Assembly (NCBI GenBank): GCA_944325585.1
Contig: CALVAS010000008.1
Span: 1 to 43,601 of the forward strand
DNA length: 43,601 nt
Direction: 5' to 3'
Source of the DNA: Candidatus Gastranaerophilales bacterium
GTDB lineage: Bacteria > Cyanobacteriota > Vampirovibrionia > Gastranaerophilales > Gastranaerophilaceae
Part shown: in pieces, positions 26,646 to 31,818 of the stretch
Layout: the number at the start of each line of letters is the position of its first letter
How positions within the stretch are numbered: the stretch's first letter is position 1
Notes under the pieces: model-generated
What the model was told of the DNA's origin: nothing
Database searches by the model: none
Seen by the model: only the letters and a program-made list of their open reading frames with translations
Program-made: the position numbers and the translations under genes

Positions 26646-27374
26646 TTACCACGGATAATCGTCTTTGATTTCCCAGCCGTCAGACATGATTAAGCCTGCA
26701 CATCCTGCCAAAGCTCCATTGCTACATTCTCTTAACATTATACTTCTGGTATGAGTATAAGCACTCCCGCCCCAAAGCCTGTAATTTGTATATTGATTCA
26801 TTTGTAATCTAAAAACATCTTTTCCCCAGGTATTTGGTCCTTTATATCCGTTTGTGTCAATATCAATTTCAACCTGTTGAGTATTATAACCGTTTTCTTC
26901 ATCTCCAGTTTTGCGCACCAGAGGAATTACAATTGTTCCGTCAGCCAGATGTATCTGAGTCATATTATTTCCTTGAGCACTGCCGCAAACACTGCAAAAC
27001 CCCACTACAGAGGTACATTCCATGGTAGAACCATCAATTTTTTTATATGTAATGTTTTTACATCCGTGCAATTTACTGTCACGATATACATTTAAATTTT
27101 GTAAATACGGAACCAGATAACGATTTGCCCAATTCCAGGAGTTGTCTGAGACGGATAGACTGTCATCAAAATAAATCCAATCTTTGGCTTCACCATAATT
27201 GGCTTCTGCCATTAAAATAGCATTATACAACTTGCTGTATGCAACTTTTAATTGATTTACCGCAAGATTTTTCTGATATTTTTGAATCAGTGAAGGCAGT
27301 GTCATTGCAGCAATAATCCCGATTATTCCAAGTGTTATTAAGACCTCAGCCATGGTAAATGCTTTTATTTTCAT
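26646..27374 (-). CDS. Prepilin-type N-terminal cleavage/methylation protein 1
   Basis: From the ATG at 27374 the product has 242 residues and begins M-K-I-K-A|F-T-M-A-E-V-L-I-T-L-G, a class III-type prepilin leader (Ala at -1, Phe1, Glu5). A hydrophobic helix and a globular part with several cysteines follow. GAGGG five bases upstream supports this start. The frame is open further upstream through an 11-base G tract to 27497, giving an N-terminal extension of 41 residues. Such pseudopilins are processed by a PilD-type peptidase and join type IV pilus or type II secretion fibres; which one is unknown. It lies directly downstream of mutS on the same strand. Confidence 0.82.
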   Translation of the reverse strand: MKIKAFTMAEVLITLGIIGIIAAMTLPSLIQKYQKNLAVNQLKVAYSKLYNAILMAEANYGEAKDWIYFDDSLSVSDNSWNWANRYLVPYLQNLNVYRDSKLHGCKNITYKKIDGSTMECTSVVGFCSVCGSAQGNNMTQIHLADGTIVIPLVRKTGDEENGYNTQQVEIDIDTNGYKGPNTWGKDVFRLQMNQYTNYRLWGGSAYTHTRSIMLRECSNGALAGCAGLIMSDGWEIKDDYPW

Positions 27375-27383
27375 TCTGCCCTC

Positions 27384-27411
27384 TATATTGTCCAATATAT
27401 TAGACAATATA
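27384..27411. repeat. 28-bp near-perfect palindrome just upstream of the prepilin 1 RBS
   Basis: The arms TATATTGTC (27384-27392) and GACAATATA (27403-27411) are exact inverted repeats. The centre is itself almost palindromic (AATATATT). It sits immediately upstream of the GAGGG RBS of the prepilin gene and could be an operator or an mRNA hairpin. Confidence 0.6.
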
Positions 27412-27475
27412 TCATTATTTTGGGCAAAAAGCAAGGGCGCTATATTTTCTGCTTTAAGAAGGCTGTTTTTACTTG

Positions 27476-27510
27476 CCCCCCCCCCCTTGAAATTCAATCA
27501 TAGTCTGCAT
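27476..27510 (-). repeat. G11 homopolymer with M-Q-T leader start (locus 1)
   Basis: On the minus strand ATG CAG ACT ATG ATT GAA.. starts at 27510, 25 bp after the mutS stop. It runs eight codons into eleven consecutive G (27486-27476). With G11 this leader stops two codons after the tract. With one G fewer it would be in frame with prepilin 1. GGAAGGTG (27529-27522) lies 11 bases upstream of the ATG. Confidence 0.85.
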
Positions 27511-27535: not shown

Positions 27536-30112
27536 TTAATTAAACAAATTCAACTGCGGAACCTCAACTTCGTTTCCGTCCGTCTTTTTCCTTGTTGCAA
27601 GATTGTTCGAAAAATCTTTCTGCATCTTAATCATCAAATCCTGTGAACGCTTGATAACAGCATTCGGCAATCCTGCCATTTTTGCAACCTGAATTCCGTA
27701 ACTTTTGCTTGCTCCGCCTTGAACTATTTTACGCAAAAATTCAATTTCGCCGTTCTCTTCCGCAACGGTTATTCTGAAATTCTTTATTTGCGGATATGTT
27801 TTTGTCATTACGTTCAATTCGTGATAATGGGTTGCAAAGATACATCTTGCTTTAATCTTTGTTGCTATAAATTCCGCAACTGACCAGGCAATCGCAACAC
27901 CGTCATAAGTGCTCGTTCCTCTTCCGATTTCGTCAAGCAGAATGAAACTTTTTTCTGTTGCAGAATTTAAAATATATGCGGTTTCAATCATTTCAACCAT
28001 AAATGTTGACTGCCCGAGAGTCAAATCATCAGACGCGCCCACACGTGTAAATATTTTATCAATTACGCCAAGTTTAAGATAATCCGCCGGAACCCATGAA
28101 CCTATTTGAGCAAGAAGCGCAATCAAGGCATTCTGTCTCATATATGTAGATTTACCTGCCATATTGGGACCTGTCAAAATCATAAACTGCGTTTTATCAG
28201 ACGAACTGCTCTGGAGTTCCAAATCGTTTGCAACATACTCGCCGAGCGGAAGAATTTTTTCCAGAACCGGATGTCGTCCGTTTTTAACAATAAAATCTCC
28301 GGATTCATCAATTTCGGGTTTTGAATAATTGTTTTCAACAGCAACCTGCGCAAGGGAAGAATAAACATCTGCTTCCGCCATACAATCAGCAATTTCTCTG
28401 ATTTTGGAAACGAATTCTTTTGAATATTCTCTAAAATCAGTGAAAAGTTTATACTCTAACTCGGTTGCCTTGAATCTTGCTGACAAAACATCATCTTCAT
28501 GAGTCTTAAGTTCCTGTGTAATGAACCTTTCCGCACCGGTTAAAGTTTGTTTTCTGATATATGTATCAGGTACAAGGTTGCGGTTTGCATTCGTAACTTC
28601 AATAAAGTATCCAAAAACTTTATTATAACCGACCTTTAAAGTTTTAATTCCTGTCGCTTCACGCTCTCTTTCTTCAAATTTGAGCAGCCAGTCCTCGCCG
28701 TTCAAAAGCAAATCGCGGTAATAATCAAGTTCACCGGATACACCTTCTTTAATTATTCCGCCTTCTTTAATCACCATAGGTGCATCGTCTTTTATCGTAC
28801 GATCAATAAGTTCGGTGAAATTTTTTATTTCTTCTTCGTATTCAATTATATTTTTAAACGGATTGTTTTCTAAGGCTGTAGATACTTCTATAAGTTCCGG
28901 CAGCATTTGAAGAGAAGCCTTGAGACTCAAAAAATCCTTCGGGTTTGCCGAATTGTTGCTTAATCTTGTTGATAATCTTTGAATATCATAAATTTTTTCA
29001 AGAAGTTCTATCAATGAAATTCTGACTGATGATTCAGAAACGAGTTCAGAAATTGCATCCTGACGTTTCATGATATCTTTAACCTGCTTGAGCGGCTGAC
29101 AAATCCAGTTTCTTAAAAGTCTTGCGCCCATGTTTGTTTTGGTCTGATCAATTGCCCATAATAAAGAACCGTATTTGTTTTTTTCGCGCATGGTTTCGAC
29201 AAGTTCAAGATTTTTTCTTGTGCTTGCATCCAAAATCATAAATTCCGAAAGTTCATACGTTTCAATCCGCTCAATTTTCGGAACATTTTCTTTCATGCTT
29301 TCCCAGATATATGCAAACAAAGCTCCTGCGGCTCTAAATCCGATTTTATATTTGTCATAGCCGTATGCAGCAAGTGCCGCAGGAGAGAAAATCGCCTTCA
29401 AATTTGCATCTGTCATGGAAAATTCAAATACGTTTGCAGGAATTTTTGAACAGTTGTAAGTGTTTACAATTCCTTCCGGCAAATCGACTTTTTCTTCCGG
29501 AACAATCTGAAAAGGTTTGATTTCTCCTCTGATAGCCGGCGCAACAATTTCTGCAGGCTGAAGTCTTGCAAGCTCTGACATCAAAAGATTTAATGGTGCC
29601 TGAGTAACTTTAAATTCGCCGGTTGAAATGTCCGAATAGGCAAAACCATATATATCAGACTTTTCATCCTTAAACATTGCGGCTATATAGTTGTTTTTAT
29701 TTTGTTTAAGAAAATCGCTCTCTGTCAGAGTTCCTGACGTAATTATACGGGTAACCCCGCGTTTGACAAGACCTTTTGCAAACTTGGGATCTTCCAGCTG
29801 ATCGCACATGGCAACCTTTATATTTTTTTGAACGAGTTTTTCAAGATATCCGGTAACGGCTTTTACAGGAATACCCGCGAGCGGTACACGCCCGTAAACA
29901 GGTCCCGCATCACGCCCTGTAAGCGTAAGTTCCAATTCTTTTGACATAAGAACAGCGTCTTCAAAAAACGTTTCATAAAAATCTCCGAGTCTGTAAAGGA
30001 GTACAGCATCAGGATTTTGACGTTTTATTTGCATATACTGCTGCATAACAGGCGTCAGCTCTTCTATTTTAACATCCCATGAATTTATTTGATTGATTTC
30101 TGATTTTGACAT
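27536..30112 (-). CDS. mutS: DNA mismatch repair protein MutS
   Basis: This 858-residue protein is full length. It has the mismatch-wedge G-D-F-Y-E (Phe45-x-Glu47), the connector, lever and clamp regions, and the ATPase with Walker A T-G-P-N-M-A-G-K-S-T (647-656), Walker B D-E-I-G-R-G (727-732), T-S-T-Y-D-G and T-H-Y-H-E-L. It recognises mispairs and small loops and recruits MutL. No clear SD precedes the ATG; a -10-like box lies so close that the transcript may have almost no leader. It is divergent from the gene at 30152, with 39 bp between the starts. The downstream gene is the prepilin with a G tract. Confidence 0.97.
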   Translation of the reverse strand: MSKSEINQINSWDVKIEELTPVMQQYMQIKRQNPDAVLLYRLGDFYETFFEDAVLMSKELELTLTGRDAGPVYGRVPLAGIPVKAVTGYLEKLVQKNIKVAMCDQLEDPKFAKGLVKRGVTRIITSGTLTESDFLKQNKNNYIAAMFKDEKSDIYGFAYSDISTGEFKVTQAPLNLLMSELARLQPAEIVAPAIRGEIKPFQIVPEEKVDLPEGIVNTYNCSKIPANVFEFSMTDANLKAIFSPAALAAYGYDKYKIGFRAAGALFAYIWESMKENVPKIERIETYELSEFMILDASTRKNLELVETMREKNKYGSLLWAIDQTKTNMGARLLRNWICQPLKQVKDIMKRQDAISELVSESSVRISLIELLEKIYDIQRLSTRLSNNSANPKDFLSLKASLQMLPELIEVSTALENNPFKNIIEYEEEIKNFTELIDRTIKDDAPMVIKEGGIIKEGVSGELDYYRDLLLNGEDWLLKFEEREREATGIKTLKVGYNKVFGYFIEVTNANRNLVPDTYIRKQTLTGAERFITQELKTHEDDVLSARFKATELEYKLFTDFREYSKEFVSKIREIADCMAEADVYSSLAQVAVENNYSKPEIDESGDFIVKNGRHPVLEKILPLGEYVANDLELQSSSSDKTQFMILTGPNMAGKSTYMRQNALIALLAQIGSWVPADYLKLGVIDKIFTRVGASDDLTLGQSTFMVEMIETAYILNSATEKSFILLDEIGRGTSTYDGVAIAWSVAEFIATKIKARCIFATHYHELNVMTKTYPQIKNFRITVAEENGEIEFLRKIVQGGASKSYGIQVAKMAGLPNAVIKRSQDLMIKMQKDFSNNLATRKKTDGNEVEVPQLNLFN

Positions 30113-30755: not shown

Positions 30756-31655
30756 CTATTTTGGTAAATTTTCCCAATAGCGTTTGCTGTTATCATCGGG
30801 ATTAATATCATTAAAAGCATACCATGCACACCCCATACCATTACCTTTTTGTTTGGATTTTATAGAACATGGTTGTCCAGACTGTGCGATATGAGCAGGA
30901 CTATCACTCCAGTTCTCTTCCAACTCCTCATCAGTGTATAATTTAGTCATCTTAGCTGGCTCAAAAACACCCAGTTTATTAACTCTAAATACAAAAATAT
31001 CATGACCTAATTTGTTTGGTTTTGCTCCTGCTCCATTAATATCAACAGTAAGAGCAATTATACCGCCGTTAACTTTAACTTGTGCGCAAGTACCATCTGA
31101 CAACATGTACAAAGGTTCGGTATCTCCCCAATCTATATAAGCATCAGCCGTATTATTATAATTTCGAACAGGAGCTTCATATTTACATTCCCCAATAATT
31201 TTGAGTTTTTTATAATATAAATCGTAAAATTCTTTAGCTCTGGCATAAATATTCTTTTCTGAATCATAAACATTAAACTCATTAAATAAATTATCAACCC
31301 CAGTTTCATATTTTATTAGTTCTAACACTTCAGAATGTCTTGAATAGGCTTTTTTAAATGCCGTCTCAAGTTGTTTATAACGCCAATTGCTGATTAAAGA
31401 AGGCAATGTCATGGCCGCTACTATCCCGATTACTCCTAAAGTTATCAGAACTTCTGCTAAAGTAAAGGCACACTTTTCGTCATTCTGAGCAAAGCAAAGA
31501 ATCTTCTGCTCATTCTTTTTTGAGATCAGTCGAGCTCCGCTCAATAGATGACAGGGTAAAATATGTTTTTTAAACCTCAATAATTCTAATGTAAATCCTA
31601 AAAATTTTCCTCTGAGGAGCTTATTCTCGGGTGCCCCCCCCCCCCCGTTTTTCAA
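30756..31655 (-). CDS. Prepilin-type N-terminal cleavage/methylation protein 2 (start behind a G tract)
   Basis: This is an open frame of 299 codons. The prepilin motif C-A|F-T-L-A-E-V-L-I-T-L-G and a hydrophobic helix begin about 66 residues in. A globular domain with W-G-D-T, L-S-D-G-T-C-A and G-H-D-I-F-V-F-R-V-N-K-L-G follows, the last block typical of this pseudopilin type. No start codon with an RBS lies near the motif. The frame opens at a TTG (31655) without RBS just before 13 G. The good start (ATG 31668 with AAGGAG) is out of frame by one G. The gene is therefore either switched off at this tract length, expressed by slippage, or affected by a sequencing error in the homopolymer. Confidence 0.72.
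   Translation of the reverse strand: MKNGGGGAPENKLLRGKFLGFTLELLRFKKHILPCHLLSGARLISKKNEQKILCFAQNDEKCAFTLAEVLITLGVIGIVAAMTLPSLISNWRYKQLETAFKKAYSRHSEVLELIKYETGVDNLFNEFNVYDSEKNIYARAKEFYDLYYKKLKIIGECKYEAPVRNYNNTADAYIDWGDTEPLYMLSDGTCAQVKVNGGIIALTVDINGAGAKPNKLGHDIFVFRVNKLGVFEPAKMTKLYTDEELEENWSDSPAHIAQSGQPCSIKSKQKGNGMGCAWYAFNDINPDDNSKRYWENLPK
31478..31556. repeat. Short dispersed-type palindromic repeat inside the prepilin 2 leader
   Basis: The ends CGTCATTCTGAGC and GCTCAATAGATGACAG are imperfect inverted repeats. The left end resembles a short repeat seen in many bacterial genomes whose translation gives F-A-Q-N-D, and the minus-strand reading here is exactly C-F-A-Q-N-D-E. It lies between the G tract and the prepilin motif, keeping the frame open. 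Confidence 0.45.
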
Positions 31656-31668
31656 GTATAGTCTGCAT
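31634..31668 (-). repeat. G13 homopolymer with M-Q-T leader start (locus 2)
   Basis: On the minus strand ATG CAG ACT ATA CTT GAA AAA C starts at 31668 and enters thirteen G (31646-31634). AAGGAG lies seven bases before the ATG. With G13 the leader ends four codons past the tract (G-T-R-E-stop). With twelve G it runs in frame into prepilin 2. Confidence 0.88.
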
Positions 31669-31704
31669 TTCCAGCTCCTTTTCTTTTTCTATATTTACTT
31701 TTTT

Positions 31705-31733
31705 ATTATACATTATTTTTTGTAGAATGAAAA
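31705..31733 (-). promoter_or_regulatory. Predicted promoter of the prepilin 2 leader
   Basis: On the minus strand TTTTCA (31733-31728), a 17-bp spacer and TATAAT (31710-31705) lie about 40 bp before the ATG at 31668. With the RicT terminator just upstream, this makes an independent transcription unit that starts before the G tract. Confidence 0.5.
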
Positions 31734-31770
31734 GTACTTTTATTATTTTAAATAAATAATATTTGAAAAT

Positions 31771-31800
31771 AAAGTCAGGAAATATAAAATGTTTTCCTGA
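31771..31800 (-). terminator. Intrinsic terminator after the RicT-like gene
   Basis: TCAGGAAA (31800-31793 on the minus strand) pairs with TTTCCTGA (31782-31775) around a 10-base loop. It is followed by CTTTATTTTC and lies 19 bases after the RicT-like stop codon. Confidence 0.65.
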
Positions 31801-31818
31801 TTTCAAAAATTTTAATAA

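Follow-up and report, generated by a model that had tools for sequence, protein, structure and literature searches.

The window (the whole stretch of DNA analysed here, 43,601 nucleotides from the Gastranaerophilales genome G000) carries on its minus strand a run of 13 G between a short leader and the reading frame of a type IV prepilin-like protein. We consider it rather probable that this tract, located among the leader codons of the protein, acts as a slipped-strand phase-variation switch, and that it is one of about 35–40 such switches in the genome. This reading is preferred because an ortholog with 12 G is in frame and because tract lengths differ between near-identical loci. At the level of sequence, the assemblies display the module, its repetition, the length differences and their effect on the frame; they also show that out of frame is the default and that a stop closely follows the tract. 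The default-OFF phase of the prepilin repertoire has probably been selected, and an element 3' of the tract, complementary to the ribosome-binding site (RBS) of the leader, probably contributes.

The Two Loci of the Window

On the minus strand, a promoter -10 box (TATAAT, 31705..31710, read directly from the sequence) and the Shine-Dalgarno (SD) sequence AAGGAGCT (31673..31680, with AAGGAG at 31680-31675) precede a leader ORF at 31621..31668. This ORF consists of ATG CAG ACT ATA CTT GAA AAA C, the G13 tract, and GGC ACC CGA GAA TAA, and its translation is MQTILEKRGGGGTRE (ATG 31668-31666, C at 31647, TAA 31623-31621). The tract, which is the proposed switch, occupies 31634..31646 on the same strand and exceeds the in-frame length by one G. 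The first-pass annotation had described a TATAAT box, AAGGAG, ATG and 13 G on the minus strand, with a leader stopped shortly after the tract at this length, and each of these parts was found again at its place, as was the stop after GGC ACC CGA GAA. The leader motif is conserved at other loci in the genome.

From the tract end to a stop at 30756, the frame of this protein, prepilin 2, is open throughout (30756..31633, minus strand). It contains the cleavage/methylation motif (G/A)-F-T-[LM]-A-E-V-L-I-T with a hydrophobic stretch, and its N-terminal methylation motif FTLAEVLITLG starts at 31466. Profile searches gave 19.4 bits against TIGR02532, over the cut-off of 16.3, and an E-value of 0.0011 against PF07963, which was over the cut-off in the whole-genome search. 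A structure model built from two sequences was too poor for use (mean pLDDT 32.7). Around the motif, no in-frame ATG or GTG with an SD was found, in agreement with the earlier claim that prepilin 2 has no nearby start. Joining leader and frame gives 67 residues before the cleavage site, the number first predicted, and this is the real arrangement in the orthologous ORF of the sister genome G007. The leader of prepilin 2 is unusually long because its spacer, from the tract to the cleavage site (31467-31560), consists of REP-like repeats that are translated (GTCATTCTGAGC..GAATCTT). Such spacer repeats are frequent in related leaders (e.g., L364, L351, L378), where they give peptides such as RHSETPQAGSESV and VILNLFQDL.

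The window contains only two runs of nine or more G (0.01 expected by chance), and both lie in one common leader (MQT-I/M-L/I-E..G) located 5' of the only two prepilins seen. The second copy is a G11 tract at 27476..27486 (minus strand), also one G too long, placed 5' of prepilin 1. Its leader ORF, MQTMIEFQGGGGK, runs from ATG 27510 to TAA 27469 (27469..27510), and the frame of prepilin 1, AFTMAEVLITLG, covers 26646..27475, both on the minus strand. The gene located between the two tract-controlled prepilins (27536-30112) resembles the mismatch repair gene mutS, as judged by eye.

Prepilin 1 has an internal ATG at MKIKAFTMAEV, with a possible RBS (GAGGG), directly 5' of the motif, and this possible start counts against the switch. 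It would suit a reading where the tract is irrelevant to expression and the leader is an upstream ORF; ribosomes would then translate the prepilin from a start inside its frame, or re-initiate once past the leader stop. The conserved end position of the leader ORF points the same way. However, prepilin 2 has no start codon with an RBS near its motif, many loci offer just 5–15 codons and no evident start between tract and motif, the tract-free prepilins of the genome have a normal SD-ATG, and a pure G run would not persist in tens of copies. We regard this reading as very unlikely.

Tract Length at Near-Identical Loci

The region 33750-30750 of the window has an ortholog in G007 which is 83% identical overall. 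In G007, the tract has 12 G, and leader and prepilin form one uninterrupted ORF in frame (MQTILEKRGGGAPENKLLRG...KCAFTLAEV), exactly the arrangement that had been proposed for the window after removal of one G. The stretch 31351-31800 is 97–100% identical between the two genomes, yet its tract, in a part with 97–98% identity, is G13 in the window and G12 in G007. A prepilin controlled by slippage, ON or OFF according to tract length and OFF at G13, as first suggested, fits all the comparative evidence, including this in-frame ortholog. In the gene located upstream, synonymous sites are saturated (dS 1.5), and the middle of prepilin 2 is just 58–60% identical to its ortholog; in its variable part, synonymous changes outweigh nonsynonymous ones (dS about 1.0, dN 0.37).

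Comparison of relatives for tract length had been proposed as a check of the switch, and lengths differed in two of the three cross-species pairs with near-identical flanks (G13/G12, G12/G13 and G11/G11), all tract lengths being those of MAG consensus assemblies. Pairs of near-identical loci with G11/G12 and G10/G12 also occur inside single genomes. The block from the leader to the transmembrane (TM) helix was probably exchanged recently between species, through recombination in the 5' region of the prepilin, and its tract would have changed afterwards. Compared with locus L132, the block 31351-31800 (~450–500 nt comprising promoter, tract and TM helix) is 97–100% identical, and the flanking genes are ~17% different.

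A Module Repeated in the Genome

Genome G000 (1.76 Mb, 105 contigs) contains 39 tracts of eight or more G and 55 prepilin N-terminal motifs; a prepilin frame follows 32 of these tracts. A switch of one single gene is ruled out by this genome-wide family. In its 5' part, the common module reads AAGGAGCT-n-ATG AAA AAG CAG ACT ATG ATT GAA TTT C(A)-G10..14, and in its 3' part G10..14-CAACCCG(T/C)AA(T)AA-AGCTCCTGAG, followed by 5–75 codons and then by FT[LM]AEVLIT. Of 183 loci of the family, 105 have TATAAT at 18–75 nt 5' of the start, vs 33 expected. Tract-free prepilins also occur in G000 and begin at an ordinary SD-ATG, in most cases 4–14 codons 5' of the motif, and there are therefore two classes of prepilins, fixed and tract-controlled. 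A match to the prepilin peptidase (PilD) family PF06750 (E 1.2e-33) and five matches to the pilus assembly ATPase family PF00437, four of them over the cut-off, were also detected in this genome.

A contig end is no more than 120 nt away from 12 of the 39 tracts (expected 1.4%), which fits mixed tract lengths and also sequencing failure at G runs. This proximity, together with the MAG origin of the data and the failure of Illumina reads at G runs (PMC9187656), would agree with errors of assembly or sequencing in long G runs, the real genes being in frame. Database G-tract lengths can indeed be wrong (PMC9187656). Such errors, however, would have to add one G in some species and remove one in others of a single assembly set (accessions labelled BRZ), and they would leave aside the selected-looking stop in the used off frame described below. 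An assembly artefact is highly improbable because the species of the BRZ-labelled set deviate in opposite directions, those with G10 being one short and those with G12 one long. Two loci of contigs C71 and C43 (L092 and L106) have a common sequence 3' of the tract and different sequences 5' of it (G13 vs G10); recombination or mis-assembly at the tract is a possible origin of this mosaic.

Coding Phase and the Stop after the Tract

Coding phase was established for 188 loci with a clear start and a prepilin frame, from about 32 Gastranaerophilales assemblies. The prepilin was out of frame with its leader in 160 of them (85%) and in frame in 28. The excess is significant against an expectation of 1/3 (p = 1.6e-8), a value that is indicative only, as shared descent of loci and species overstates their independence. 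Less than 1/3 of the loci were in frame in 14 of the 15 species with at least three loci. The direction of the deviation followed tract length. At G10, 63 of 71 loci need one G more, six are in frame and two need one less. The 38 loci with G11 divide into 22 that need one less, 11 in frame and five others; for G12 the counts are 45, 10 and one, and for G13 they are 14, zero and two. Thus, 81 of 110 loci with G11–13 are off by +1, and the 63 of 71 with G10 are off by -1. In nearly every species, the usual tract length would then lie one slip from ON, by gain at G10 and by loss at G11–13. Short G tracts tend to lengthen and long ones to shorten; if this is so here, ON would lie on the side favoured by slippage.

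A stop codon was found within 12 nt 3' of the tract in the used off frame at 140 of the 160 out-of-frame loci, vs 29 of 160 in the third, unused frame. In the genomes with G10, the length of the leader and the frame after the tract each vary, and their sum is constant in phase. In the genus of the window, the +1 phase was observed in 58 of 80 loci, vs 34 when tract lengths were shuffled. This phase bias and the compensation between tract and flanks are partly attributable to substitutions at the tract boundary, which preserve total length; with that caveat, pure drift of tract length is disfavoured by the bias.

These regularities also bear on programmed recoding, where the out-of-frame DNA would be the working state and slippage of RNA polymerase, or ribosomal frameshifting, would yield prepilin as a fixed minor fraction, with low, graded expression of each copy. 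The single consistent off phase per species, the stop that closely follows the slippery run in the frame used, the constant phase of the G10 species in spite of variable leaders and post-tract frames, and the off phase kept in three of seven interrupted tracts all agree with it. Also, the preference for one of the two off frames exceeds the needs of a free-running switch and fits programmed slippage as well. Nevertheless, G10 and G11–13 species need opposite shifts, not to be expected from one ribosomal mechanism; near-identical loci differ in the length of the tract in the DNA; and ~15% of loci (up to 11 of 38 for G11) are already in frame in the DNA. We hold programmed recoding, the main rival of phase variation, to be unlikely, and its form as a uniform ribosomal frameshift is rejected on the direction of the shift.

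The seven interrupted tracts were also considered as a means to decide between phase variation and recoding, and they were indecisive: three are in frame, three in the +1 phase (one of them, L377, assigned by hand with the common MQT leader assumed, its start not being assigned by the script) and one in neither. Those in frame, L385, L378 and L382 (G5AG5, G5AG4 and G5AG6), look like locked-ON versions. A G5AG5 tract in G000 is continuously open.

A Sequence Complementary to the Shine-Dalgarno

In the window, AGCTCCT (31615..31621, minus strand) includes the final base of the leader stop and is complementary to the SD region at 31673..31680; the two would form the 3' and 5' arms of a proposed hairpin. 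An SD complement adjoins the leader stop in other groups too, each with its own sequence: the pairs are GGAGCT/AGCTCC in the genus of the window, AAGGAGA/TCTCCTT in G034, GGAGAG/CTCTCC in Zag_111 and GGAGGTTAA/TTAACCTCC in CALUTI. The helix score between the SD and the post-tract sequence was 15.6 for real loci, vs 14.2 ± 0.33 when arms were swapped between species (higher than all 60 draws, of which the highest was 14.9) and 12.2 when they were shuffled. In minimum-energy folds, the SD paired with sequence 3' of the tract in 90 of 188 loci, vs 32 with shuffled arms. A 7-bp helix is present in the predicted fold of the window locus, the folding energy of which is not unusual (z -0.8). Arms rich in C may, in addition, pair with the G run. 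Taken together, these comparisons suggest that a hairpin sequestering the SD is likely, without being universal.

Distribution among Relatives

The number of tracts of nine or more G per genome ranged from 0 to 115 in Gastranaerophilaceae, vs 0–6 in the other families of the order. A search of 386 Cyanobacteriota genomes for the pattern G10-C-N12-42-FT[LM]AEV gave matches in 39, each of them from Gastranaerophilaceae, and the reversed pattern had zero matches in the same 386 genomes. The arrangement of leader, G tract and prepilin was found in none of ~215 other Cyanobacteriota genomes outside Gastranaerophilaceae. A scan of ~85,000 species genomes gave at least 116 stretches with the pattern. 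Among the matches listed, the 80 loci look like Gastranaerophilales/Melainabacteria wherever an organism is named; several records bear only the title 'uncultured bacterium', and 'Fusobacterium sp. CAG:439' was taken as a misnamed member.

Leaders differ in other genera, for example MKNLFR..AH with G10 (G034), MKNGIVSIYA with G13 (G022) and MNNFLTRP with G11 (G016). Four prepilin loci of G034 have C10–C11 on the sense strand (L112, 2623 minus strand; L115, 15184; L121, 10103 minus strand; L125, 7912 minus strand), and the flanks of these tracts resemble the reverse complement of the usual ones, as though the element were inverted. In G026, tracts of G9–G10 lie ~650–850 nt 5' of the prepilin motif with stops between (L350, L353, L365, L371); the leader is different (MADVEIKNGQ.. 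in L353), and one slip cannot join the frames.

The module is repeat-like, ~130 nt long and present at many loci. Together with the separation of some G026 tracts from the prepilin by ~700 nt, this would suit a decaying pseudogene family left by a spreading mobile leader repeat. However, prepilin frames of 200–300 codons remain open, the tract is pure, the ortholog is intact, and the variable part of prepilin 2 has the synonymous excess given above. Decay appears to us scarcely credible.

Discussion

Under phase variation, most tract-controlled genes would be OFF in most cells. Ribosomes would start at the leader ATG, traverse the G run and stop just 5' of the SD complement, and pairing of the SD with its complement may then reclose the start site and keep the OFF state quiet. 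Loss of one G during replication in species with 11–13 G, or gain of one in species with 10 G, would fuse the leader in frame with the prepilin, so that ribosomes would cross the anti-SD and the pilin would be produced. The population would be a mosaic: out of a large pilin repertoire, each cell would express a small selection that differs from cell to cell. We extend this tentatively to a family-wide switchboard built on a single promoter/SD/leader/G-tract/stop/anti-SD module and controlling tens to ~100 prepilins per genome. In it, phase may have been selected to lie exactly one slip from ON, on the side favoured by slippage, opening of the hairpin by translation coupling may make OFF tight and ON strong, and each cell may display a random pilin subset.

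G-tract phase variation is already known from Neisseria, Campylobacter and bifidobacterial sortase pili. In Neisseria, pilC, which encodes an adhesin and is present in one or two copies, has a G tract in its signal sequence, and pilE undergoes phase and antigenic variation via recombination from silent copies. As proposed here, a G run close to the N-terminal part of the coding sequence switches a type IV pilus component, and the pilin body is variable; the low copy number and adhesin nature of pilC, and the recombination of pilE, are unlike our loci. The poly-G/poly-C tracts of Campylobacter jejuni sit in unrelated surface-structure genes, whereas those described here concern one gene class, one repeated module and a biased phase. 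Strain NCTC11168 of C. jejuni has 29 such contingency loci (PMC4965091).

The sortase-dependent pili of Bifidobacterium breve (bbr_0113, bbr_1889) have a G-tract ON/OFF switch for which replication slippage was measured; slippage of -1+3n in a G11/G12 tract joins two ORFs, and ON lengths were enriched in mice (PMC9187656). The likeness is close, since in both gut commensals a G11/G12 tract splits a pilin gene between secretion leader and body, and a -1 slippage joins the frames. However, the switched loci of B. breve are single or few and belong to sortase pilus operons, whereas ours are type IV prepilins, tens of them per genome, with a common leader, an off phase that is conserved and a sequence complementary to the SD. 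Bacteria and IS elements also use programmed transcriptional slippage, which likewise involves a homopolymer run, out-of-frame halves and a stop soon after. The survey cited here covers A/T runs (PMC1088944). In contrast to such systems, DNA length varies at our loci and the direction needed differs between species. In the literature searched, which did not extend to subscription literature or preprints, we found neither a module repeated 30–100 times per genome with a conserved off-by-one phase nor an account of phase variation in Gastranaerophilales.

If true, the switch would account for the frameshifted look of Gastranaerophilaceae prepilins and for the tendency of contigs to end at tracts. 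With tens of parallel natural switches, these genomes would also be a test bed for the co-evolution of slippage bias and coding phase. In the uncultured Gastranaerophilales of the gut, which represent a branch of Cyanobacteria without photosynthesis, the set of phase-variable genes would then be among the largest known, and all its members would serve one class of surface appendage.
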